Of a stretch of 64,000 nt of DNA, positions 1,453 to 45,115 are shown in pieces. Position 1 is the stretch's first letter; each line of letters opens with the position of its first letter. A program made the translations under genes and the position numbers. The DNA comes from Hysterangium stoloniferum (lineage: Eukaryota > Basidiomycota > Agaricomycetes > Hysterangiales > Hysterangiaceae): positions 124,001 to 188,000 of the forward strand of contig WHVD01000131.1 of the NCBI GenBank assembly GCA_015178975.1, given 5' to 3'. The notes below the pieces were generated by a model that had not been told where the DNA came from, did no database searches, and worked only from the letters and a program-made list of their open reading frames with translations.

Positions 1453-4400
1453 CTAAAATGTTCTCAATAGTCCGTGTTTATCCATTTCCAGAATAAACCC
1501 CTCAATCTGTTCAAACGGAATACCCTCCGTATAATGTATAATGAACGATACAATCCCAACAATTTCAAAAATACTAGGGTTCAAAACAAAACCTACAAGA
1601 TTTTGAACCAATCCATTAAAAATCATACAGAGAAACACTTACTATCATGCTCAATGAGAATTTCCACCATCCGGCCATAATCTCGTACCGGAGGTTCAGG
1701 CAAGTAGAAGCGGCAAACTGCAGAGAGGATTACCCGCAGCCTTAGCTTCGCAGAGTGACCTGCAGCACAATTAAAGAAGTTGCCACTGTAAAGAAGTGAA
1801 ACATACCATATTTGGCAGACACTGCAAACAATTTTGCACCAGGTGAAAAGAATTCAGGTTTATCTACACCAACAAGCGATCCGCAGTGATATTCTAGTTT
1901 ACGCTTAATAATGTGATCGCCAAGCAAATCTTTGAAACATTCATGACAAAAAAATGTTGAGGTTCATGTCAAGCCACGAACCATGGGGCATAAGCTTAGC
2001 GAGGAAGTCAACAAGTTCTTCTGGACTGGGGAAAGAGGTATCCTCCGATAGTTTGACAATGCTGGGAACAATATTGGCAATGTTTGGTCGGAATTCGACT
2101 GTGGGTGAATGTCAGCTTGATGGCGTTCCCACTATAAGACACTAAACCTTGCTCTGAAAGCTTCGCCAATGCCGATACTCCCTCGGATCGAACGTACGCG
2201 TCAGAATGCTTCAAAAGTGCAACGATGTCGGGAATGGCAAGCGCGATGGCCGTTCGAAATTCCCCTGTCGTTGAATGTTAGTTGCATTTCGAGCCCATTA
2301 TTACCCACTGCACCTTGCTCTGAAAGCTTCCCCAGTGCCAATACTCCTTCGGATCGAACGTACCGGTCAGAGTCCTTCAGAAGGGCAACAATGTCGGGAA
2401 TGGCATCCGCAATGGCCGTTCGAAATTCGCCTGTCGTCAAATGTCAGCTGCATTCCGATCCCATTATTACCCACTGCACCTTGCTCTGAAAGCTTCCCCA
2501 GTGCCGATACTCCCGAGGATCGAACGTATGAGGCAGAGTCTTTCAAAAGTGCAACAATGTCGGGAATGGCAAGCGCAATGGCCTTTCGAAATTCCCCTGT
2601 TGTCAAATGTCAGCTGCATTCCGATCCCATTATTCCCCACTGCACCTTGCTCTGAAAGCTCTGCCACTACCGATACTCCCGAGGATCGAACGTACGAGTC
2701 AGAGTCTTTCAGAAATGCAATAATGTTGGGAATGGCATCCGCAATGGCCGTTCGAATGTCCCCTGTCGTCAAATGTCAGCTGCATTCCGATACCATTATT
2801 ACCCACTGCACCTTGGTCTGAAAGCTTTCCCAATGCCAATACTCCCGAGGAACGAACGTACCGGTCAGAGTCTTTCAAAAGGGCAACAATGGCGGGAATG
2901 GCAACTGAAATGGCCGTTTGAAATTTGTCTGTCGTCAAATGTCAGCTGCATTCCGATCCGATTATCACCAACTGCACCTTGCTCTGAAAGCTTTCCCAGT
3001 GCTGATACTCCCGAGGATCGAACGTACTCGTCAGAGTCCTTCAAAAGTTCAATAATGTCGGGAATGGCAACCGCAATGGCCGTTCGAAATTCCCCTGTCG
3101 CCAAATATCAGCTGGATTCCGATCCGATTATCACCCACTGCACCTTGCTCTGAAAGCTTCGCCAGTGCCGATACTGCGGAGGATCGAACGTCCTCGTCAG
3201 AGTCCTTCAAAAGTGCAACAATGTCGGGAATGGCAACCGCAATGGCCGTTCGAAATCCGCCTGTCGTCAAATGTCAGCTGCAGTCCGATCCGATTATCAC
3301 CCACTGCACCTTGCTCTGAAAGCTTCGCCAGTGCCGATACTCCCGAGGATCTAACGTCCTCGTCAGAGTCCTTCAAAAGTGCAATAATGTCGGGAATGGC
3401 ATCCGCAATGGCCGTTCGAAATTCGCCTATCGTCAAATGTCAGCTGCATTCCGATCCAATTATCACCCACTGCACCTTGCTCTAAAATATTTTGCAGTGC
3501 CGATACTCCCGAGGATCGAACGTACCAGTCAGAGTTTTTCAGAAGTGCAACAATGTCGGGAATGGCAACCCCAATGGCCGTTCGAAATTCCTCTGTCGTC
3601 AAATGTCAGCTGCATTGCGATCCCATTATTACCCACTGCACCTTTCTCTGAAAGCTTCCCCAGTGCCGATACTCCCGAGGACCGAACGTATAAGGCAGAG
3701 TCTTTCAAAAGTGCAACAATGACGGGAATGGCAACCCCAATGGCCGTTCGAAATTCCCCTGTCATCAAATGTCAGCTGCATTCCGATCCGATTATCACCC
3801 ACATCACCTTGCTCTGAAAGCTTCCCCAGTGCTGATATTCCCGAGGATCGAACTTCCTTCTCAGAGTGCTCCAAAAGTGCAACAATGTCGGGAATGGCAA
3901 CCGCAATGGTCGTTCGAAATTCCCCTGTCGTCAAATGTCAGCTGCATTCCGATCCCATTATCACCCACTTCACCTCGTTCTGAAAGCTTAGCCAGTGCCG
4001 ATACTCCCGAGGATCGAACTTTTTCCTCAGAGTGCTCCAAAAGTGCAATAATGGCGGGAATGGCACCCGCAATGGCCGTGTGAAATTCGCCTGTCGTCAA
4101 ATGTCAGCTGCATTCCAATCCGATCATCACCCATTGCACCTTGCTCTGAAAGTTTCGCCAGTGCTGATACTCCCGAGGATCGAACGTCCTCGTCAGGGTC
4201 CTTCAAAAGGGCAACAATGTCGGGAATGGCAACCACAATGGCCATTCGGAATTCGCCTGTCGTCAAATGTTAGCTGCATTCCGATCAGATTATCACTGAC
4301 TGCACCTTGCTCTGAAAGCTTTGCCAGTGCCGATACTCCTTCGGATCGAACGGACCAGTCAGGGTCCTTCAGAACTGCAACAATACCGGGAATGCAACCC

Positions 4401-4722
4401 GCAATGGCCGTTCGAAATTCGCCTGTCAACTGCATTTTTATCCGATTATCATCCACTGCACCTTGCTCTGAAAGCTTCGCCAGTGCCGATACTCCCGAGG
4501 ATCGAATGGACCCGTCAGGGTCCTTCAAAAGTGTAACAATGTCGGAAATGGCACCCGCAATGGCCGTCCGAAATTTGTCTGAAAATCCATAAATTACGGC
4601 AGTGTGCGAAGCCCTGGTCCACTTACCAAACACACGGAAACAGATGACTGCCTGTACGAGAGCCAACTTTCCTTCAAGAACTTCAAGTTCGAATCTGGGT
4701 AGGAGAAGTGGAAAATTCCTCG
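1453..4722 (-). CDS. HEAT-repeat protein A with 15 one-exon HEAT repeats and a unique C-terminal domain (5' end unresolved)
   Basis: The body consists of fifteen 117-bp exons on the minus strand, at 4462-4578, 4306-4422 and then every 166 bp down to 2148-2264. Each encodes one 39-residue HEAT/ARM-type repeat (core IPDIVALLKDSD, VRSSGVSALAKLSEQ), separated by 49-bp introns that read GTGCAGT...CTGAC...ACAG. All junctions are phase 1, so the repeats join in frame. A degenerate repeat follows (EFRPNIANIVPSIVKLSED, below 2098). A C-terminal region of roughly 130 residues I do not recognise then runs over three exons (KLEYHCGSLVGVDKPEFF, LRLRVILSAVCRFYLPEPP, LNPSIFEIVGIVSF), with well-formed introns near 1.8 kb (GTATGT) and 1.63 kb (GTAAGT), to a TAG at 1453. 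The joint near 1940-1990 is inferred. Upstream, a 96-bp exon (4627-4722) with a GTAAGT donor precedes the first repeat, but I found no ATG, so one or more 5' exons are missing from the model. HEAT arrays usually form protein-binding solenoids; the partner is unknown. A paralog lies just upstream. Confidence 0.7.
2148..4578 (-). repeat. tandem exon-intron array A (166-bp unit)
   Basis: Fifteen units repeat at 166 bp, of which 117 bp is exon and 49 bp intron. The unit between 4422 and 4462 has a 39-bp intron, so its period is 156 bp. The GT donor and AG acceptor are intact in every unit I checked although intron interiors vary. That is what selection on a spliced gene would produce. Confidence 0.85.
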
Positions 4723-5096
4723 CTATGAATGTGTTAAAATAAATTAGACGAGGAATAGTATACAACCACTGTTCATGCACATATTATTGTTATATATTTA
4801 AAGACTTTGATAAATTCAGGACGGCGTGTAATAGAGGGGTTTTGCCGACCACCCATATGTAAAAGAAGGGGGGATGCGACTTGCGACATATACTGTATGT
4901 AAGGCGGATATACAAGATTGCTCTAAGACTGATGGGTATCAGAAGGAGCACAATGGGGGATGTTCAGGCTTCGGAATGGTATTGAGGGTTACTCACGCAC
5001 CTTACTGTCACTCAAACCAATCGCAGAAGTTATGTGAAGCGTGAGAAGAGAATGATAGTGCCCTACAAAGGTTTCAGAAAGGTGCTTCAACAAGAA
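4723..5096. other. spacer between the two HEAT genes
   Basis: It contains the unresolved 5' end of HEAT gene A (an acceptor-like CATTCATAG lies at about 4723) and the 3' flank of HEAT gene B. No ATG-led exon stands out on the minus strand. Gene B could alternatively read through into gene A if its last caag|gt were used as a donor. Confidence 0.3.
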
Positions 5097-7855
5097 TTAT
5101 TGGATGATTGGATGACCTTGCTCGGATAGCTTGAACAGTACACATGCTGCGTTTGAGCGAAAATCGTCATCAGTATTCTTCAAAAGTGCAACAGCGACGG
5201 GAATGACAGCCTCAATGGCAGGTTGAAATTCAGCTGTCATTAAATGTCAGCTTCATTCCGATGCAATATCACCCACTAAACCTTGCTCTGAAAGCTTCGC
5301 CAGTGCCGATGCTCCCTCGGATCGAACGGACTGGTCAGAGTGCTTCAAAAGTGCAACCATGGCAGGAATGGCACCCACAATGGCCGTTCGAAATTCGCCT
5401 GTCGTCAGATGTCAGCTGTATTCCGAACCGATTATCACCCACTGCACCTTGCTCTGAAAGCTTCGCAAGTGCCGATACGCCCTCGGATCGAACGTACCCG
5501 TCAGAGTGGTTCAAAAGTGCAACAATGTCGGGAATGGCACGCGCAATTGCCGTTCGAAATTCAACTGTCGTCAAATGTCAGCTGCATTCCGATCCGATTA
5601 TCACCCACTCCACCTTGTGCTGAAAGCTTCGCCAGTGCCGATATTCCTTCGGATCGAACGTACCGGTCAGAGTGCTTCAAAAGTACAACAATTTCGGGAA
5701 TGGCATCCGCAATGGCCGTTCGAAATTCACCTGTCGTCAAACGTCATCTGCATTCCAATCCGATTATCACCAACTCCACCTTGCTCTGAAAGCTTCCCCA
5801 GTGCTGATACTGCCGAGGATCGAACGTACTCGTCAGAGTCCTTCAAAAGGTCAATAATGTCGGGAATGGCATCCGCAATGGCCTTTCGAAATTCCCCTGT
5901 CGTCAGAAGTCAGCTGCATTCCGATCCGATTATCACCCACTCCACCTTGCTCTGAAAGCTTTTCCACTGCCGATACTCCCGAGGATCGAACGTACCAGTC
6001 AGAGTCCTTCAAAAGGGCAACAATGGTGGGAATGGCACCCGCAATGACCGTTCGAAATTCGCCTGTCGTCGGATGTCAGTTGCATTCCGATCCCATTATT
6101 ACCCACTGCACCTTGCTCTGAAAGCTCCGCCAGTGCCGATAGTCCCGAGGATCGAACGTACCGGTCAGGGTCCTTCAAAAGGGCAACAATGTCGGGAATG
6201 GTACCCCCAATGACCGTTCGAAAGTCGCCTGTCGTCAGATGTCAGCTGCATTCCGATTCCACTATCACCTACAGCACCTTGCTCTGAAAGCTTCGCCACT
6301 GCCAATACTCCCGAGGAACGAACGTACCTGTGAGAGTCTTTCAAAAGGGCAACCATGGCGGGAATGGCAACCCCAATGGCCGTTCGAAAGTCGCCTCTCG
6401 TCAAATGTCAGCTCCATTCCGATCCGATTATCACCCACTGCACCTTGCTCTGAAAGCTTCGCCAGTGCCGATACTCCCGAGGATCGAACGTACTCGTCAG
6501 AGTCCTTCAAAAGGTCAACAATGTCGGAAATGGCACCCGCCATGGCCGTTCGAAATTCCCCTGTCGTCAAATGTCAGCTGCATTCAGATCCGATTATCAC
6601 CCACTGCACCTTGCTCTGAAAGCTTCGCCAGTGCCGGTTCTCCCGAGGATCGAACGTACCAGCCAGAGTCCTTCAAAAGGGCAACAATGTCGGGAATGGC
6701 ATCCACAATGTCCGTTTGAAATTCGCCTGTCGTCAAATTTCAGCTGGATCCCGATCCCATTATTACCCACTGCACCTTGCTCTGAAAGCTTCGCCAGTGC
6801 CGATATTCCCGAGGATCGAACTTCCTCCTCAGAGTGCTTCAACAGTGCAACGATATCGGAAATGGCACCCTTAATGGCCGTTCGAAATTCACCTGTAGTC
6901 AAATGTCACCTGCATTCCGATCTCATTATCACCCAGTGTACCTTGCTCTGAAAGCTCCGCCATTGCCGATACTCCTGAGGATCAAACTTCCTCGTCACAG
7001 TGCTTCAAAAGTGCAATAATGTCGGGAATGGCACCCACAATGGCCGTTGGAAATTCGCCTGTCGTGGAATGTCAGCTGCATTCCCATCCCATTATCAGCC
7101 ATTGCACCTTGTTTTGAAAGCTTCGCCAGTCCCGATATTCCCGAGGATCGCAGGAGGGACATCGAGTACTTCAAAAGTGCAACAATGTCGGGAATGGCGC
7201 CCGCCATGGCCGTTCGAAATTCGCCTGTCGTCAAATGTCAGCTGCATTCAGATCCGATTATCACCCACTGCACCTTGCTCTGAAAGCTTCGCCAGTGCCG
7301 ATACTCCCGAGGACCGAACTTCCTCCTCAGAGTCCTTCAAAAGTGCAACAATGTCGGCAATGGTACCCGCAATGACCGTTCGAAATTCGCCTATCGTCAA
7401 ATGTCAGCTAGATTCCGATCATATTATCAACCACTGCACCTTGCTCTGAAAGCTTGGCCAGTGCCGATACGCCCTCGGATCGAACGTACCCGTCAGAGTG
7501 GTTCAAAAGTGCAACAACCTCGGGAATGGCACCCGCAATGGCCATTCGAAATTCGCCTGTCGTCAAATGTCAGCTGGATCTTGATCTTATTATCGCCCAC
7601 TGCACCTCGTTCTGACAGCTTCGCCAGTGCCGATAATCCGCAGGATCGAACGTTCTTGTCAGAGTCCTTCAGCAGTGTGATGAAGTCATGAATGGCACCA
7701 TGGAGGCCAGTTCGAAGTCTACCTGAAAATCGCTGTATATTACATTGTCCTCCCTTTTCCATTGGGATTCTCTTACCACATTCGAATAGTAACAGTTCTA
7801 CTTGATCAGGTATGTTTTGAGAACCTTCTCTGCTACGCTGTTCCAGTTTCTTCAT
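5097..7855 (-). CDS. HEAT-repeat protein B built from 16 one-exon HEAT repeats
   Basis: An ATG at 7855 opens a 79-bp first exon (MKKLEQRSREGSQNIP...) with a GTAAGA donor (intron 7723-7776). Fifteen 117-bp exons follow at 7606-7722, 7440-7556 and so on every 166 bp down to 5282-5398. The terminal exon, 5097-5233, ends KLSEQGHPIIQ-stop. All introns are phase 1 and the summed length is 1,971 bp, a multiple of three, giving 656 residues. Repeats have the IPDIVALLKDS / VRSSGVSALAKLSEQ signature of HEAT/ARM solenoids; no other domain is visible. One repeat (exon 6942-7058) has an in-frame TGA at 6982-6984 where sister units read CGA, a CpG-to-TpG change, so this allele may be a recent pseudogene or that exon may be skipped, which keeps frame because each exon is 117 bp. 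The DUF6535 gene lies 124 bp upstream on the same strand, so co-transcription or an undetected fusion is possible. Confidence 0.7.
5117..7722 (-). repeat. tandem exon-intron array B (166-bp unit)
   Basis: Sixteen units have the same 117 + 49 bp architecture as array A and the same intron family, so both arrays share an origin. The unit at the 3' end is the most diverged (exon 5117-5233, intron 5234-5281 of 48 bp). Confidence 0.85.
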
Positions 7856-7979
7856 CCACTCTTTTTTTTCCCAGCAGTGATAATAAAGTTAGGTATTTGT
7901 GTTTTAATTAATTGCGTGAAGTCAGTTCACCTCCTTTTTCAACCTCGCCTTCGATCATCCTCCGGCAATCCTCTGCTCC

Positions 7980-9599
7980 TCAATTAGAGTCTTTCCCGTA
8001 GTTATGGAACATATTCTTACCATGATCCCAATACGCCAACATCGCCCTTTGGCAACTTGTACTTAAGTTGTCATGTCGCGATGATGCTCCATCTATAGCC
8101 GCCAACATCAAAGCCTTTCGCTCGTATGCTGCTGCACCCACAGTGACCAAAGTTTGAATGTGTCTGGGTAACGACATCCCCACGTTACCATCATCCATGT
8201 TTGTCGAAATACCAATACAAACTGCCCACCCCGTTGTTTGTAGGGAAGGCGGTAAACTGTCCGGCCGATTTAAGGGTATCCCACCGTCCAGAAGGGTTAT
8301 GAAGGGAGAAAGGTATTTTTTGTCAATTATTTTGTCGTTTTCTATGCGGGGCAATAGGAACCGTGAAATTGCAAGGAGGGAAACTTCGGCAATGTCTGCA
8401 TCCCATAAGGTGACGGTGTCCGCATTGAGCTGAAAGCAGTTCGACAAGACTTTGCATACTTTGTCCGTTATGGCTCGTTGGCACAATGCAATCCGCAGCG
8501 GTTCAGATTGTTTAGCACCTGCTAGCGCCCTAAGTGCCTCTTGAACTGCCTCCTTCGATGTGGAGTTTGCAATCATCCATGCCAGGACATCAGCTTCAAG
8601 TCGGGCCCGTTGAGGAATGCGATGCATTTCGATGAGGAACCGAGAAAGGCTTTCTAGCCCATCATAAATTCTGGATATATACGTCTCTGTCGGCGACAAA
8701 GACTTATAGTCGTCTGATATCGACGTCTCATACTTTGCGCGGGCACGGATGACTGGCAAAAACCGTGACATCGTTGTCCGAAAGGGGCAAGCACGGGAAA
8801 ACAAGGGTAAAACTGTGCCGAGTATATATAGCATGAATCCGAATAGGGTTAAAAAAAGCATAATAATGCCCAAAGCGACGCTGTTATTCCAGGTGAATAA
8901 GACGAGACCTGCAGAGAAAAGGAAGAGAGCTAGTTGGATCAAAAGCGGGATTCCACTAACAACTGACACGAGGCGCCATTGGTATGCTCTTTTCAAACGA
9001 AGGTGACGTTCGTAGGCATCACTTGAGGAACTTCCTCCGGATCTATGAATATACCCCGCCAGCCATTCTCTTGTAAGTACAGCACAAAGTGCACTGAAGA
9101 GAGTGAGACCGAGACTAGTGAACCACAAATAGTTGACAACAAGGGATGATTTGGAGACTTGAAAAGGCGGAGAGGTAGTTACAGCGAGGGGTTTTTGAAG
9201 CGCCTGAAGGATTTCCAGAAGAGGATCTACCTGCAAATCCTTCCTACTTTCAATCAGGAATGCGGTGAGAATCCCTGCAAACAAACCCGCCTGAAAAAGT
9301 GTGAATTAATGAAAGATCCATAAAGGAAAATGTATTGAATATACAAATATGAGAAGGTCGTCAACACCAACTTGCAATGACTCGACAAGATCTCTGTCCT
9401 CTTTTTCCGTTTCCTTCAGATATAATGACCATACGGTTGAATCCCATTGAACATGCTTGTTATAGGGGTTATCGTCCTCACTTTCTAAGCCATTATCGGC
9501 ACTGGATACCTCATTTGGTGTAAATGCTGATTTAATACCTGAGACAGACGGTATCTGTGATTCAGCGGAGCTAGGGTCTTTTGCAAACTGCTTAGACAT
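7980..9599 (-). CDS. DUF6535-family multi-pass membrane protein
   Basis: This is a two-exon gene: exon 1 at 9345-9599 (85 codons), intron 9291-9344 (GTATAT...TTTTCAG), exon 2 at 7980-9290, giving 521 residues. The acidic cytosolic N-terminus leads into WSLYLKETEKEDRDLVE and VDDLLIF, then across the splice AGLFAGILTAFLIES. This is the characteristic order of the basidiomycete DUF6535 domain. Hydrophobic segments are at about 86-100, 136-157, 193-217 and 225-247. The 270-residue C-terminal half is soluble and helical-looking with weak repeat character (EAVQEALRALAGAK). Function in this family is unknown. The reading frame is uninterrupted. A decayed piece of a related gene lies at 35.9-36.04 kb next to a HEAT fragment, suggesting DUF6535 and HEAT genes travel as neighbours. 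Confidence 0.8.
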
Positions 9600-10135: not shown

Positions 10136-10207
10136 TGGCCAGACTGGGAGTTGAACCCAGAACTTCTGCATATATAGCAAGGGTATTACCAATTACACCA
10201 CCCAACC
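10136..10207 (-). tRNA. tRNA-like sequence, probably a pseudogene or SINE head
   Basis: The 72 nt read on the minus strand begin GGTTGGGTGGTGTAATTGG, which contains a perfect box A (TGGTGTAATTGG). They also contain GGTTCAACTCC, a good box B. The 7-bp acceptor stem pairs if G-U pairs are allowed, the D stem (GTGT/ATAC) pairs and the T stem (CTGGG/CCCAG) is perfect. The anticodon arm (CTTGC TATATAT GCAG) does not form a normal 5-bp stem with U33, so I cannot assign an anticodon. It could be a decayed tRNA or the head of a tRNA-derived SINE. Confidence 0.4.
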
Positions 10208-14469: not shown

Positions 14470-17140
14470 GGAAGACCGGCCAACTAGTGTTGAGGCGGGG
14501 AGTAACTACGGAAAGAAAGATTAAAGTCATAGTTAGCACAGGAATTGGCAGGCAAAAAGAACAAGATAGGACTCACGTTCCAAAATGGCCTTCATGGTAA
14601 GATACGAACATCACTCAGGCTACTTGGTTTGGTGTCCCACATCAAAAAAGATACGAGATGTACCACTCAACATGACATCATATGGTCCCTGGAAGGCTAA
14701 GGGGGGGAGCGCCGGGCCCATATGACGTGTTACGACCGTGTCGCAACCCTATCGGCCCCGAGATTATCGCCACTTGTCAACGTTTCAAGTCATCCTCTCG
14801 GAAACCATCGGCCCCGAAGCTGACGAATGTTTCGCGAAGATCAAACTCCATTTACGCCCACGTCAAATAACTCGTATTGTCTGGTCAAACTTTGATACGT
14901 CCCCTTTATTATGTTGATCCGTTCAATCTTATGTTTCGCATATGTCTATCTATATTTGTAGTCCTCGAACCATTTCCTTTTATCGTAATTCCGCTCTCGG
15001 TTATCATCGGCCTCCGAACTAATCATAAACTTCCCGTTCCTAGTCAAGCTTATTGTTAATACCGTGTTCCGCCCTTCTCCCCATTAGTATTTTCCAGACG
15101 CCTGTTACTTGTATATGAACCCGCTGTAATTGTAGTTACTAGACAATCAGAATATCGACTCAGAATACCCTCATACACCTGTATCAGTCTCATACTAAGA
15201 CTTCCCCCATCCGCCTTCGCGTGCGCTCGCCCACTCCCGGCCCTGACCCCTTGGCCCGACACCCGACTTGTCCTTCGATTCCGATCGGTATCACGTCGAA
15301 AGGTACTCACTAGGACTAGTCCTCGCCCGCCCGAAATTTAAGGACATCCTACGGATATTTGGGAGGGTGCAGCCCATAAGCTGAAGCCAAGTCCTTCCGA
15401 TCGGTCCCTGTCGGCCACCGACATTAGTCAGTTTCCAGTTCTTAACATGACGTCAGTGAACAGCTGTGATAGAGATTAATAAAATGAATGAATAAAACGA
15501 ATGCGAGCTTACTGTGATTGTGCACCAAGGGTGAAAATGAGATAAATGCAGTCATGCATGAATGGGAAGACCGGCCAACTAGTGTTGAGGCGGGGAGTAA
15601 CTACAGAAAGAATTAAAGTCATCGTTAGCATAGGAATTTGTAGGCAAAATGGACAAAATGGGACTCACGTTCCAAAATAGGCTTCATGGTAAGAGATGAA
15701 TGTTATTGGAGCGACTTGGTTTGGTGTCCCACATCCAGGAAATAAAAAAGATACGAAGTGTACCACTCAACATGACGTCATATGGTCCCTGTAAACTAAG
15801 CGGGGGAGCGCCGGGCCCATATGACGTCAGTGAACAGCTGTGACAGAGATTAATAAAACCAATGAATAAAACGAATGCGAGCTTACCGTGATTGTGCACC
15901 AGGGGTGAAAATGAGATGGATGGAGTCATGCATGAACGGGAAGAAAGGCCCATTAGTGTTGAGGCGGGGAGTAACTACAGAAAGAATTAAAGTCATAGTT
16001 AGCATAGGAATTCGTAGGCAAAAAGGACAAAATGGGACTCACATTCCAAACTGGCCTTCATGGTAAGAGATGAATGTTATTGGAGCGACTTGGTTTGGTG
16101 TCCCACATCCAGGGGAATAAAAAAGATATGAGGTGTACCACTCAACATGACGTCATATGGTCCCTGTAAACTAAGCGGGGGAGCGCCGGGCCCATATGAC
16201 GTCACTGCAGGGTGAACAGCTGTGGTAGAGATTAATAAAAGAATGAATAAAGTCAAAGCGAGCTTACCGTGATTTTCCACCAGGCATGAAAATGAGGTGG
16301 ATGCAGTCATGCATGAACGGGAAGAAAGGCCCATTAGTGTTGAGGCGGGGAGTAACTACACTAAGCAGGGGAGCGCCGGGCCCATATGACGTCACTGCAG
16401 GATGGAGAGATTAATAAAACGAATGAAGAAAACGAATGTGAGCTTACCGTGATTGTGCACCAGGGGTGAAAATGAGATGGATGCAGTCAAGCAAGAATGG
16501 GAAGAACGGCCTGCTAGTGTTGCGACGGGGAGTAACTATGGAAAGAATTAAAGTCATAGTTAGCATAGGAATTCATAGGCAAAAAGGACAAAATGGGACT
16601 CACATTCCAAACTGGCCTTCATGGTAAGAGACGAATGTTATTGGAGCGACTTGGTTTGGTGTCCCACATCCAGGGGAATAAAAAAGATACGAGGTGTACC
16701 ACTCAACATGACGTCATATGGTCCCTGTAAACTAAGCGGGGGAGCGCCGGGCCCATATGACGTCACTGCAGGATGAAGAGATTAATAAAACGAATGAAGA
16801 AAACGAATGTGAGCTTACCGTGATTGTGCACCAGGGGTGAAAATGAGATGGATTCAGTCAAGCAAGAATGGGAAGAACGGCCTGCTAGTGTTGCGGCGGG
16901 GAGTAATTACAGAAAGAATTAAAGTCATAGTTAGCATAGGAATTTGTAGGCAAAACAGACAAAATGGGACTCACGCTCTAAACTGGCCTTCATGGTAAGA
17001 GACGAGTGTTTTCGGAGCAACTTGGTTTGGTGTCCCACATCCAGGGGAATAAAAACGATACGAGGTGTACCACTCAACATGACGTCATATGGTCCCTGTA
17101 AGCTAAGCGGGGGAGCGCCGGGCCCATATGACATCACTGC
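13930..17140 (+). repeat. 371-bp satellite array, each unit headed by a 56-bp CRE-ended palindrome
   Basis: Units begin with TGACGTCATATGG at 14298, 14673 (TGACATCA variant), 15773, 16148, 16709 and 17080. Intact units are spaced 371-375 bp; one interval (561 bp) contains a partial extra unit. The head is a 56-57 bp element whose ends, TGACGTCATATGG and CCATATGACGTCA, are perfect reverse complements flanking a GC-rich core. The body carries ATGCAGTCATGCATGAA, GTTGAGGCGGGGAGTAACTA and TTGGTTTGGTGTCCCACAT in every unit. No coding capacity is evident. A solo LTR interrupts one palindrome. TGACGTCA is the classic CRE/ATF core; any binding here is inference. Confidence 0.85.
14728..15447. mobile_element. 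solo LTR (720 bp) of an LTR retrotransposon
   Basis: The ends are TGTTA...TAACA, flanked by a perfect 5-bp target duplication TGACG (14723-14727 and 15448-15452). It lies inside the terminal palindrome of a satellite unit. There is no internal region, so it is a solo LTR left by recombination. It is CpG-rich and the target duplication is perfect, which suggests it is young compared with the CpG-poor fossils around it. Its family cannot be assigned. Confidence 0.8.
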
Positions 17141-17960
17141 AATATTCCTATCAGGTAAAAGTCAGCCTCCACTCCATCAAGGGCAATATAACACATACGG
17201 TCTGTCCGATGTTCTTAACATTGGTCTTGATGTAACCCAAGAGCTCTTGAGTGTGCAACCCTGCAAAATGTTCCGCGCGCATCTTCTTTGCTGCCTCAAC
17301 TTCGAAAAAGACGTATGCGAAGACATCGCGGAGCATTTGTTGCAATTCATGCTCCATGTAGATGCCACGCGGTGTTGTTTCTGTCTTCAACGGGAGACCA
17401 GCCTGTGTACCGTAAGTAGATGCATAGGACCACATTAAAAATAAAATAACTCACAATGGCCGTAGCTGCAAAGTGCACCGGAATGAGGTTTAGTACCTCG
17501 CCCTGAGCAAGGCATGTTAGTAAAGTAATTGAATATAAGAATGGAATCTAAGAGAACGTACGACAAGATCCACACTGTAACCAGCACTTCCAGAAAGAGT
17601 GAAGCTCTTGAGGCATAAGCGGGAACCACGTGAATGTGCTGTTCTCGGTATAGTCATGTGGGAGTGTGCGGAGTAGGACTGATAAATATAATGACAAACA
17701 GGTCACACATGAACATCATTGCTTCCCTGCATAAGAGAAATTGGTTACACACGTCGTCCTAGCATGCTACCAAACTCATCATTGGTGGTATCGTGCTGAC
17801 AGTCTTGGAAACCCCATGCAGTGAGATTTGCGGGTGTGAAATCTGCTGTGAAGAAACGATCGCCACGAGTAAGAGCGATGGCATCTATAACTAGTTTAGA
17901 CGACGAATGCTCAATGATAACGGGGTGTATTTTTTCAAACCTGCGAGAATGGCACAAGAA
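17140..17960 (-). pseudogene. Ppo-type fatty-acid oxygenase (linoleate diol synthase) with internal deletion
   Basis: The 5' exon encodes RGDRFFTADFTPANLTAWGF and GSMLGR, typical of the heme-peroxidase (dioxygenase) domain of Ppo/linoleate diol synthases. A GTGTGT...TATCAG intron joins it in frame to LLLRTLPHDYTENSTFTWFP. After FPLM the sequence switches to P450-domain sequence: SFTLSGSAGYSVDLV, then after an intron EVLNLIPVHFAATAI, then GLPLKTETTPRGIYMEHEL and LGYIKTNVKNIG. The end of the peroxidase domain and the start of the P450 domain, probably over 100 residues, are deleted. The gene is also truncated at the 5' side, where only an acceptor precedes about 17,960, and at the 3' side, where the satellite begins at 17,140 and the heme-thiolate Cys region is absent. 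Intact proteins run to about 1,000 residues and make oxylipin signals; this remnant cannot. Confidence 0.75.
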
Positions 17961-24299: not shown

Positions 24300-25740
24300 A
24301 GACGGCGTCTTCTGAGATTCTGACGTATAGAATTTGACGGCTTCGCGATTTCTTTTGTGGCGTTTATTGTAGTTGGTCTTGTACTGGGACGGGTTGGAGC
24401 AGATAGATTGTTTGGCTGCGAATTAGAAGAACTAGATTTATCCAGAATCGAGTGCTTACTACGAGCCTGTTTTTGACCACTTGTTTGTATTGCGGCAGGT
24501 CGGGATGGATGGTTAATGAATGGTGACAAAAACAGTTTTGAATGGCGACGAAGAGAATTTTGAATGGTAACAAAGAGGATATTGAATAGCGATGAAGAGA
24601 ATTTCAAATGGCGACAAAGAGGTTTTTGAATGGTGACGAAGAGGATTTTAATGGTGAGGAAGATGTTTTTGAACAGTGATGAGACGTTTTCAAACAGTGA
24701 TCACATTTATGAACAGCAACTAAGAGATTTTTGAATGGCAACAAAGAGGTTTTCGAATGGTGACAAAGAGGTTTTCGAATGGCGATGAACAGGTTTTCAA
24801 CAGTGAGGAAGAGGTTTTCAACAGTGAGGAAGAGGTTTTCAAACAGCGATCACGTTTATGAACGGTGACTAAGAGATTTTTGAATAGTGACAAAAAACCT
24901 TTTCAATGGCGAAAACACCCCTTTCAATGCCATGCACAACGGTGATCAAGATCATCACGACAAAGAGCCATCAATAGCAAAGATTGGAGGTTGAGTGGCA
25001 TTTGGGACGGCGATGAAGATATTTTGGGACGGCAACGAAGAAGTTTTGGGACAGCAATGAAGAAGTTTGGGGACGACAATGAAGAAGTTTTGGGACGGCG
25101 ATGAAGAAGTTTTGGGCAGTGATGAAGATATTTTAGAACGGCAAAGACAATTAATGTTGCCAACAGGAATTGAGACAATGGTGATCAAGATTATCACGAC
25201 GAAGAGCCATCAACAGCAAAGATTGGAGGTTGAGTGGCATTTGGGATGGGCAATGAAGAAGTTTTGGGATAGTGATGGAGATGTTTTGAGATGGCGATGA
25301 AGATGTTTCATTTGATCAGTATTTTGAACGGTGATTACAATAACATTTGCCAAAGATGAAACAGTGATGAAAACCATTTTGCTTAGTGTTTTGAATGGCG
25401 ATGAAGACATTTGATCAGTGTTTTGCATGGTGAAGAAGACATTTGATTGGTATTTTGAATGGCGACAAAGGCATTTTGATCGGTATTTTGAATGGCGATG
25501 ACAATAACGTTTACCAACAGTGAAATGGCAAAGAAAACCATTGTAATCATTGTTTTGAATGGCGCTGAAGATGTTTGATCAGTATTTTGAATAGTGACGA
25601 CAATAATATTTGCCAACGGTGAAACGGCAATGAAGACAATCGGTATGTTTGAACTGCAGACGACGATGATAATGCTTGTCAATGGCAAATATTGGAGTTT
25701 GAATGGTGAGGGAAACGGATTGAAATGGCAAAGACAATGT
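24300..25740 (+). repeat. degenerate minisatellite, roughly 30-bp period
   Basis: The motif TTTTTGAATGGCGACAAAGAGG and close variants (ACGGTGAT, AACAGTGATGAAG) recur dozens of times with a period near 30 bp. There are sub-blocks around 24.5-24.9, 25.0-25.15 and 25.25-25.72 kb. A second array of the same family lies at 44.2-45.1 kb. It is not coding. Confidence 0.7.
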
Positions 25741-36189: not shown

Positions 36190-36388
36190 ATGGCGACTGA
36201 TTCTGATCACATTCTCACCCACTGCACCTTGCTCTGAAAGTTTTGCCAGTGCTGATAATCTGCAGGATTGAATGTTCTCGTGAGAGTCCTTCAGCAGTGT
36301 GACAAAGTCACAAATGGCACCATGTAGGCCACTTCCAAGTCTAGCTGAAAACTGCATATTATATTGCACCCCCATTTCCATTGTGATT
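36190..36388 (-). pseudogene. decayed first HEAT exon with both flanking introns
   Basis: An exon of exactly 117 bp (36,228-36,344) with caag|gt donor and ctg (CAG) acceptor aligns with the first HEAT exon of gene B (7606-7722). Both flanking introns are recognisable. CGA codons have become TGA/CAA types (GATTGAATG for GATCGAACG), so it is CpG-depleted and dead. It stops exactly where the 72-bp repeat array begins. Confidence 0.75.
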
Positions 36389-37735
36389 GCCTGTGCAAGG
36401 GTGTTCATCCTGGATGAACACCTGCATATGCACAATACAGGCAGCTTCGGCGCTAAAGTTGCCTGTGCAAGGGTGTTCATCCTGGATGAACACCTGCATA
36501 TGCGCAACACAGGCAGCTTCAGGGCTAAAGTTGCCTGTGCAAGAGTGTTCATCCTGGATGAATACTTGTATATGCGCAATACAGGCAGCTTCGGTGCTAA
36601 AGTTGCCTGTGCAAGGGTGTTCATCCTGGATGAACACCTGCATATGTGCAATACAGGCAGCTTGGGCGCTAAAGTTGCCTGTGCACAGGTGTTCATCCTG
36701 GATGAACACCTGCCTATGCGCAATACAAGGAGCTTCGGCACTAAAGTTGCCTGTGCAAGGGTGTTCATCCTGGATGAACACCTGCATACACGCAATACAG
36801 GCAGCTTCGGGGCTAAAGTTGCCTGTGCAAGGGTGTTCATCCTGGATGAACACCTGCATATGCGCAACACAGGCAGCTTCGGGGCTAAAGTTGCCTGTGC
36901 AAGGGTGTTCATCCTGGATGAACACCTGCATATGCGCAATACAGGCAGCTTGGGCGCTAAAGTTGCCTGTGCAAGAGTGTTCATCCTGGATGAACACCTG
37001 CATATGCGCAATACAGGCAGCTTGGGCGCTAAAGTTGCCTGTGCACAGGTGTTCATCCTGGATGAACACCTGCATATGCGCAATACAGGCAGCTTAGGCG
37101 CTAAAGTTGCCTGTGCAAGGGTGTTCATCCTGGATGAACACCTGCATATGCGCAATACAGGCAGCTTCGGCGCTAAAGTTGCCTGTGCAAGAGTGTTCAT
37201 CCTGGATGAACACCTGTATATGCGCAATATAGGCAGCTTCGGCACTAAAGTTGCCTGTGCAAGTGTGTTCATCCTGGATGAACACCTGCATATGCACAAT
37301 ACAGGCAGCTTGGGCGCTAAAGTTGCCTGTGCAAGAGTGTTCATCCTGGATGAACACCTGCATATGCGCAATACAGGCAGCTTGGGCGCTAAAGTTGCCT
37401 GTGCAAGAGTGTTCATCCTGGATGAACACCTGTATATGCGCAATATAGGCAGCTTCGACGCTAAAGTTGCCTGTGCAAGTGTGTTTATCCTGGATGAACA
37501 CCTGCATATGCGCAATACAGGCAGCTTCGGCGCTAAAGTTGCCTGTGCAAGAGTGTTCATCCTGGATGAACACCTGTATATGCGCAATACAGGCAGCTTC
37601 GGCACTAAAGTTGCCTGTGAAAGGGTGTTCATCCTGGATGAACACCTGCATACGCGCAATACAGGTAGCTTTGGCGCTAAAGTTGCCTGTGCAAGGGTGT
37701 TCATCCTGGATGAACACCTGCATACACGCAACTTT
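36389..37735 (+). repeat. 72-bp repeat array 1, about 18.7 copies, palindromic core
   Basis: Each unit has GCCTGTGCA, then the 17-bp palindrome GTTCATCCTGGATGAAC, then CACCTGCATATGCGCAATAC, AGGCAGCTTCGG and GCTAAAGTT. In many copies the palindrome arms extend through flanking GT/AC, and GCCTGT...ACAGGC forms an outer inverted repeat. The core is nearly invariant while the other half varies. Because 72 is a multiple of 3 and the unit lacks stops in several frames, open frames over 500 codons appear on both strands; I do not consider them genes. Confidence 0.9.
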
Positions 37736-42494: not shown

Positions 42495-43040
42495 TCACAG
42501 TTCACCCTGGATGAACACCCACATATGTGCAATACAGGCAGCTTCGGTACTAAAGTTGCCTGTGCAAGAGTGTTCATCCTGGATGAACAGCTGCATACAC
42601 GCAATACAGGCAGCTTCGGTGCTAAAGTTGCCTGTGCATGGGTGTTCATCCTGGATGAACACCCGCATATGTGCAATACAGGCAGCTTCGGTGCTAAAGT
42701 TGCCTGTGCATGGGTGTTCATCCTGGATGAACATCCACATACATGCAATACAGGCAGCTTCAGCGCTAAAGTTGCCTGTGCAAGAGTGTTCATCCTGGAT
42801 GAACACCTGCATACGCGCAATACAGGCAGCTTCAGCACTAAAGTTGCCTGTGCATGCATGTTCATCCTGGATGAACACCCGCATATGTGCAATACAGGCA
42901 GCTTCGGCGCTAAAGTTGCCTGTGCAAGGGTGTTCATCCTGGATGAACACCTGCATACGTGCAATACAGGCAGCTTCAGCGCTAAAGTTGCCTGTGCAAG
43001 GGTGTTCATCCTGGATGAACATCTGCATACACGCAACTTT
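42495..43040 (+). repeat. 72-bp repeat array 2, about 7.5 copies
   Basis: Same unit as array 1 (36.4 kb) and same orientation, with the invariant GTTCATCCTGGATGAAC core and more variation in CACCTGCATACGCG. The common tail (43,041-43,198) follows. Confidence 0.9.
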
Positions 43041-44220: not shown

Positions 44221-45115
44221 ATCTCCAACTCCACACACAAGTTCTGGCGACTATTAATCAACTTTTTGAATGGCGACCAAAAGCTTTTCGAATCGTGACA
44301 GACGACGATATTGAATGGTGAAGACATTTTTCTAACAGCGACGAAGCTGTTTTTGAACAGCGAAGAGGATTTTAGATGGTGACAAAGAAGAGGATTTAAA
44401 ATTCCGAAGATCTTTTCAAACAACGATGAGACATTTTTGAAAGGTGATAAACACATTTTTGAACAGCGATCACGTTTATGAATGAAGATCAAGACATTTT
44501 TGAATGGCAATCAAGTTTTTAAACGGTCATGAAGAGGTTTCGAATCGCAAAGATGTTTTTAAACAGCGATAAGACATTTTCGAAAGGTGACCATGGCATT
44601 TTCAAACCGCGATGACATTTATGAACGGCAACAAAAAGCTTTTGGAATCGCAAAGATATTTTCGAACAGTGATCAGACATTTTCAAACAGCAATCAAGAC
44701 ATTTTCGTACAGTGATGACGTTTATGAACGGCGACAAAGAGCTTTTTGATTCGCCAAGATGTTTTTGAAGAGTGATGAGACATTTTTGAACAGTGACAAT
44801 CACATTTATAAATGGCAACTTAAGACGTTTTTCAGTCCCGATCACCGCCGGGAACCCGCTTTGAAGACTCGGACCGACAAAGACATTTTTGAATCCCAAG
44901 CAAGTCATTTTTGAATAGTAATCATATTTATGAATCGCGATAAAGACCTTTCTGAATCACGACCAACAAGTTTTTGAATAGCGATTAAGTTTATGAATGG
45001 CGGTCAAGAGCATTTCGAATCATGACCCAGAGGTTTTTAAACTGCAAAGATCTTTTCAAACAGCAATCAAACACTTTCGAACCATCACGAACATTCTTTT
45101 CAATCGTAATTGGCG
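44221..45115 (-). repeat. degenerate minisatellite, roughly 30-bp period, second array
   Basis: TTTTTGAACAGCGATGAGAC, TTTTGAATGGCGACCAAAAG and variants repeat through this stretch, the same family as at 24.3-25.7 kb. Open frames on the minus strand (Phe/Lys/Ser-rich) are products of the repeat. Confidence 0.7.

Follow-up and report, generated by a model that had tools for sequence, protein, structure and literature searches.

We describe here a gene on the minus strand of a 64,000-nt stretch of the Hysterangium stoloniferum genome (the window; contig WHVD01000131.1, positions 124,001 to 188,000, with all coordinates below counted from its first letter). The gene joins an N-terminal DUF6535 domain to a long array of HEAT repeats, each encoded by its own 117-bp exon and mostly separated from the next by an intron of 49 bp. 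It belongs to a family with many members in the same genome. The explanation that we favour, and hold to be somewhat better than an even bet, is that this DUF6535-HEAT family was built by amplification of an exon-intron unit at the DNA level, homogenised by exchange between units, diversified by selection, and given a recognition job.

Under the mechanism that we propose, a founder HEAT exon would have been tandemly duplicated at the DNA level together with its short intron. Units homologous along their entire length would then lend themselves to out-of-register crossing-over and ectopic gene conversion, and this exchange would copy, shift and homogenise units within and between paralogues, with whole units being gained or lost. 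Exon length would be held by the protein and the intron mainly by its splice signals, and selection would diversify repeat positions 22-23, which lie at the inter-helix turn. The solenoid would thereby offer a changeable binding face, joined to a hydrophobic, probably membrane-anchoring N-terminal domain, and the proposed job would be to recognise variable self, nonself or partner proteins.

The repeat unit and its introns

Tandem Repeats Finder (TRF), run on the window, reports an array at 2146-7671 with a period of 166, 33.4 copies and a score of 5614. A preliminary description of this DNA had placed several HEAT genes at 2148-7722; the interval is predicted from its sequence to be part of one minus-strand gene, with the array split into two blocks of 16 and 15 exons and 538 bp between them that carry two short non-HEAT exons. 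Mapped exon by exon, block A (5117-7722, minus strand) holds 16 exons of 117 bp and 15 family introns (14 of 49 bp, one of 48 bp), and block B (2148-4578, minus strand) holds 15 exons of 117 bp with 14 introns between them (13 of 49 bp and one 39-bp variant at 4423-4461). A last family intron of 49 bp, at 2099-2147 on the minus strand, stands ahead of the tail exon. The preliminary count of 31 units, each with a 117-bp exon and a 49-bp intron, thus stands for the exons, which are exactly 117 bp in 31 of 31 cases and encode one 39-residue repeat each; among the 30 introns it holds for 28. All 31 exons lie in the same phase-1 frame, as had been described, and one of them carries a TGA. Of 30 stretches examined, the inter-block spacer included, two have a stop in the coding frame, compared with 28 and 25 in the other two frames.

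The pattern of constraint is the same in a comparison set made up of the window and 20 further loci from the same genome, taken as best matches. Across these 21 loci, 535 of 557 exon matches are 117 bp long, and introns measure 49 bp (397), 47 bp (68) or 48 bp (24), with a few others between 32 and 58 bp and six overlapping calls. A stop in the nominal frame occurs in 11 of the 557 exon matches, several of which are frame-shifted or poorly placed. Every one of the 475 full-length ungapped matches among them, taken without splice-site refinement, is preceded by AG, and 470 are followed by GT and five by GC. Among the internal columns of 384 introns of 49 bp, conservation peaks at A36 (100%), T34 (99%) and T7 (99%). 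T34 and A36 fall in a CTGAC motif resembling a branch point, and these are, we presume, the two positions that such a motif would keep fixed. From these splice and branch-point signals the 49-bp introns are predicted to be spliceosomal. Since 49 is not a multiple of three, retention of an intron would break the frame.

An alternative in-frame donor 9 bp into the intron was considered and rejected: its G10 and T11 are present in 87% and 95%, as against GT in 470 and GC in five of 475 at the first position, and in the consensus of the 47-bp introns a 2-bp deletion also puts it out of frame. As a separate observation, introns of 47 and 49 bp are mixed in some arrays (L013, L014, L016, L018 and others) and differ by 2 bp near the donor, which makes them a possible tracer of unit exchange.

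Joined units match the Pfam family HEAT (PF02985) with 168.8 bits against a cut-off of 23.5, using a query of 14 of the 31 window units that contained one mistyped letter. A single HEAT exon is predicted to form a helix at residues 2-18, a turn, and a second helix at 22-37, with a mean predicted local distance difference test score (pLDDT) of 90.2. Because one exon folds alone as a hairpin in the prediction, one exon would equal one structural repeat; positions 22-23 open the second helix in this model, at the turn between the helices. Asp19 is present in 390 of 515 exons and Arg25 in 464 of 515, and we take a conserved Asp and Arg at these positions to mark HEAT repeats. The tandem period and array-wise homogeneity would also suit a non-coding satellite with frames left open by chance, an idea to which we give practically no credence: exon length is fixed where intron length drifts, a single frame is open, the HEAT match is far above its cut-off, and conserved coding pieces lie on both sides of the array.

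The family across the genome

We searched one genome, of 111 Mb in 554 contigs, whose DUF6535 domains, short introns and CTGAC motif point to a mushroom-type basidiomycete. The HEAT exon-intron unit of the window recurs in all 20 further loci, and the DUF6535 profile matches 75 stretches at E ≤ 0.001, with some genes contributing more than one stretch. Judged by coordinates, the HEAT array has a DUF6535 match next to it in 20 of the 21 loci; none is among the matches listed for L011. A pattern for the 3' end of the intron occurs at 901 places with at most one mismatch (none for the reversed control). The donor junction pattern occurs at 906 places (reversed control 0) and the acceptor junction pattern at 1,344 (reversed control 1), whereas a fused HEAT exon-exon junction was found nowhere in the genome at up to two mismatches. 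Retroposed intronless copies were likewise not found at up to two mismatches, a threshold at which more diverged copies would escape the pattern. At five of five intron places examined, drawn from the first 100 listed of the 901, HEAT exon sequence stands beside the intron. Given these neighbours and the missing fused junction, the intron appears to travel with its exon, at the DNA level. The earlier claim that exon and intron were amplified as one module gains from both the recurrence of the unit and the missing junction.

Introner elements place the same intron in unrelated genes, and 901 copies of one intron end might be taken for a mobile intron of this kind, inserted at the same place in pre-existing HEAT repeats. 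We find this very hard to credit, because all five places examined adjoin HEAT exons, an empty HEAT-HEAT junction is missing at up to two mismatches, and array-wise similarity is found in introns and exons both.

It is also conceivable that the intron is kept in each unit because it is useful there, either by letting phase-1 exons be skipped or chosen to yield many isoforms or by giving a 166-bp period that positions nucleosomes. Any set of the 31 window exons could indeed be skipped in frame, all being phase 1 and 117 bp, and the lack of a fused exon-exon junction would fit. Introns are also slightly less different between units than four-fold degenerate sites (means of 0.109 and 0.125), being lower in 14 of 20 loci (p 0.048). 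In the window, however, the order is reversed, with introns at 0.165 and four-fold sites at 0.114. Units resemble one another closely in their splice signals, which offers no hint of regulated choice among them, and the period drifts to 164-165 in other loci. A HEAT exon of 117 bp and a short intron together account for the period, so that the closeness to chromatosome length pointed out earlier needs no explanation of its own. We therefore regard a per-unit use of the intron as unlikely, and return to amplification and exchange of units as the favoured account.

Exchange of units within and between arrays

To compare units we used 363 that have a 49-bp upstream intron and located the nearest relative of each. 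For 184.8 of the 363 the nearest unit belongs to the same locus, against 18.4 (5%) expected; in the window this is so for 26 of 27 units. Introns alone give 185.6 (window 18 of 27) and exons alone 168.0 (window 26 of 27). Clustering by array is strong in L009, L010, L011, L012, L017 and the window.

One exchanged tract can be followed in detail. Units can be aligned one by one between L024 and L025, and between L013 and L023. In the L024/L025 pair, units 7-15 of one locus match units 10-18 of the other over 1,932 bp with six mismatches, at an offset of three units, in genes that are otherwise about 90-93% alike. On its left side, upstream mismatches at 8, 36, 39 and 56 bp put the edge near an exon start, though not sharply; on its right side, the first mismatch comes 75 bp beyond an exon end, within the next exon. 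The preliminary description had proposed aligning units within and between arrays to look for gene conversion, and both comparisons bear signs of exchange. A further pair, L037 and L038, shares 97.3% identity over the first 2.4 kb, at the N-terminal end, and 85-92% in the arrays, which have 24 and 21 unit matches.

Blocks not cut by the ends of a locus contain about 10-21 units. Such change of arrays by whole units appears best explained by out-of-register exchange. The suggestion that repeat number could change without loss of frame agrees with this variation among paralogous arrays, in which exons stay at 117 bp; the intron is not required for it, because 117 bp is 39 codons and a change in repeat number stays in frame with or without one.

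Two sets of results weigh against the favoured explanation. Nine loci (L013, L020-L026 and L028) show little or no clustering by array, and the distances of exons and adjoining introns are correlated (p<0.05) in just five of 19 arrays for the downstream intron and three of 19 for the upstream one (control 0 of 19). The exon half that adjoins the intron is correlated with it in five of 19 arrays on either side, and the window has no correlation (r 0.22, p 0.078; r -0.04, p 0.58). We do not favour a strict lock-step of exon and intron, as few arrays are correlated and the mapped L024/L025 tract ends inside an exon. The histories of exons and introns thus seem weakly linked, and the locked module would be right for the origin of the arrays and partly right for present exchange.

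Variety at positions 22 and 23

Repeat positions 22 and 23 are hypervariable, with an entropy of 3.1 bits each. The 515 exons contain 94 different residue pairs at these positions, and the 31 window exons contain 17. Two repeats differ here with a frequency of 0.72 per residue and pair, compared with 0.26 elsewhere. Proportions of synonymous (pS) and nonsynonymous (pN) differences were obtained by counting statistics on recombining units and pooled within loci, giving a pS of 0.179 and a pN of 0.155 overall and, for the 33 codons outside the five variable ones, 0.165 and 0.124. At codons 22-23, pN is 0.443, above the pS of the 33 other codons in 21 of 21 loci. The variety is probably the outcome of selection for variety.

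Several points weigh against that reading. Positions 22-23 were chosen on the same data on which they were tested, and in two of 20 loci (L015 and L019) they are not both among the four most variable residues, as they are in the other 18. Their own pS is also high, at 0.388 beside a pN of 0.443; compared codon by codon, pN is the greater of the two in just 12 of 21 loci for codon 22 and 15 of 21 for codon 23. At four-fold sites of these codons 0.207 of pairs differ, compared with 0.118 for other codons, whose individual values span 0.024-0.333. The overall pN/pS of 0.86 is compatible with relaxed selection as well. Because pS and four-fold difference are raised at these codons, a locally higher mutation rate or older variation could contribute, although we favour a mutation hot spot less than selection as the source of variety.

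A more far-reaching idea combines selection with splicing. In a membrane-anchored repertoire without a nucleotide-binding oligomerisation domain (NOD), hypervariable HEAT exons in one phase would be shuffled among paralogues in the germ line as well as being spliced selectively, so that each gene would present many faces, in the manner of Dscam or of variable lymphocyte receptors (VLRs). We give this a slim chance.

The gene in the window

The gene model starts at an ATG at 9599 and encodes 1,848 residues with one internal stop, in at least 37 exons whose junctions are mostly near-alike. Every junction between exon 2 and the tail exon is phase 1. Exon 1 (9345-9599, minus strand, as are all parts of the gene) is 255 bp long, ends in phase 0 and begins DUF6535; exon 2 (8021-9290) encodes most of the domain, followed by a stretch without a Pfam match. 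Joined, the two exons match DUF6535 (PF20153) with 156 bits against a cut-off of 23.9, over positions 1-177 of the 177 in the profile. A single-sequence structure prediction for the DUF6535 exon had a pLDDT of 45.6 and is not usable. Exon 3 (7777-7860) is a short connector ahead of the HEAT array, phase 1 on both sides, with full-length matches at 76-90% identity in L009, L010 and L011. Of the two phase-1 linker exons between the blocks, the first (5006-5062) has matches in L009 and L010 only; the second (4627-4722) has matches at E<0.02 in 16 of 20 paralogous loci and no Pfam match. Neither NACHT nor NB-ARC appears in the Pfam matches listed for the pieces searched (N-terminal, HEAT, linker and tail; for HEAT, the best 25 of 28 families).

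After block B, a degenerate 32nd HEAT-like exon begins at 2098. This tail exon (1941-2098) runs from the degenerate repeat into a region that conserved coding sequence continues in another frame, past the stop at 1941, with the switch near a homopolymer at 1948-1954. Two C-terminal conserved coding stretches, together spanning 1644-1948, have tblastn matches at E<0.02: the first (1948-1808) in 15 of 20 paralogous loci and the second (1760-1644) in 13 of 20, both without a Pfam match.

These details bear on whether the copy in the window is a decaying pseudogene, or contains assembly errors, such that the family is as we describe it and this member lacks a full protein. The fifth HEAT exon of block A (6942-7058) has an in-frame TGA, which counts against an intact gene, and the tail stretches of the window lie in different frames, whereas L009 and L010, its closest relatives, have both in a single frame. 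On the other side, 30 of 31 HEAT exons are open, AG precedes and GT follows all 31, and skipping the exon with the stop would keep the frame. Match coordinates also put the two tail stretches out of frame with each other in L021, L022, L024, L025 and L028; a tail frame change shared by five other loci could reflect an unrecognised intron or some other structure there. We see decay or misassembly of the window copy as a tangible but minority possibility; the account of the family does not change with it.

Upstream of the gene and on the same strand is a tRNA-Ile gene with anticodon TAT (10136-10207, minus strand). A solitary relic, consisting of a first HEAT exon and the start of its intron, lies at 36192-36321 on the minus strand and adjoins a 72-bp satellite; a near-identical donor stretch is also found on contigs C90 and C125. 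The satellite forms two arrays, at 36387-37731 (18.7 copies) and 42500-43030 (7.4 copies), and its unit holds the palindrome-like GTTCATCCTGGATGAAC. The window also contains a degenerate minisatellite, mostly of 21-22 bp, at 24517-25592 and 44429-45038, with units that include AAGAGGTTTTCAACAGTGAGG and AAGACATTTTCGAACAGTGATC, and a tandem duplication at 16360-17141 (unit 371 bp, 2.1 copies, 94% matches).

Relation to known repeat proteins

The best sequence matches of four joined window units in the PDB are OR497 (4rv1), designed armadillo proteins (6s9m, 4v3r) and alphaReps (6ft5). All of these are engineered, the alphaReps with randomised surface positions, whereas the variety in the DUF6535-HEAT genes is natural. 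Vertebrate NOD-like receptor (NLR)/LRR genes and collagen genes also have one repeat module per symmetric-phase exon, as here; they encode other folds, and their introns are longer and more diverged.

Closer parallels are found in fungi. As described in PMC4986451 and PMC12222747, fungal NLRs with WD, ANK, TPR or HEAT repeats, such as the HNWD genes of Podospora anserina, undergo concerted evolution, change in repeat number and positive selection at a few binding-face positions. The DUF6535-HEAT genes resemble those accounts in their similar repeats, exchange within and between members, change in number and few hypervariable positions, here among the paralogues of one genome. Unlike fungal NLRs, they have DUF6535 at the N-terminus, with NACHT and NB-ARC not found in the pieces searched, and each repeat has an exon to itself; neither PMC4986451 nor PMC12222747 uses the word 'intron' in its main text. 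The mean residue identity of repeats over whole arrays is about 69% in the window, 80% in L012 and 82% in L011, array means that lie below the >85% repeat identity over 100 residues used for fungal NLRs with internally conserved repeats. With no NACHT or NB-ARC found and mean identity under 85%, we do not file the family with fungal NLRs, though by analogy it may work like the repeat proteins among them.

Growth by exon-intron modules had been called unusual in the preliminary description. Repeat-protein genes built from duplicated intron/exon modules are, however, already in print as the second class of Street, Rose and Barrick (2006), as outlined in PMC4585158. The present genes share with that class, in this outline, exons that match the repeat unit (535 of 557 matches at 117 bp); they go beyond it in having about 25-35 copies per gene, many genes, one-repeat exons, a single family of short introns and signs of continuing exchange. 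DUF6535 is named in PMC12387923, the one paper found to mention it, as an entry in a table of expressed genes. Among open-licence papers we did not find the combination of DUF6535, hypervariable HEAT repeats and one intron per repeat. Relative to the DUF6535 family as such, to which the N-terminal domain belongs by a match far over the cut-off, the HEAT array is an addition.

With at least 37 exons and near-alike junctions, a gene of this kind is difficult for gene-finding pipelines. Each exon has its own standard of comparison in the neighbouring intron, and this makes it easier to tell exchange and selection apart when repeats evolve in concert. What is known of nonself recognition by repeat proteins in fungi comes mainly from NLRs. 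If the explanation favoured here is true, the DUF6535-HEAT genes would constitute a second, DUF6535-based repertoire with a HEAT sensor, and a little-studied domain would acquire a testable role.

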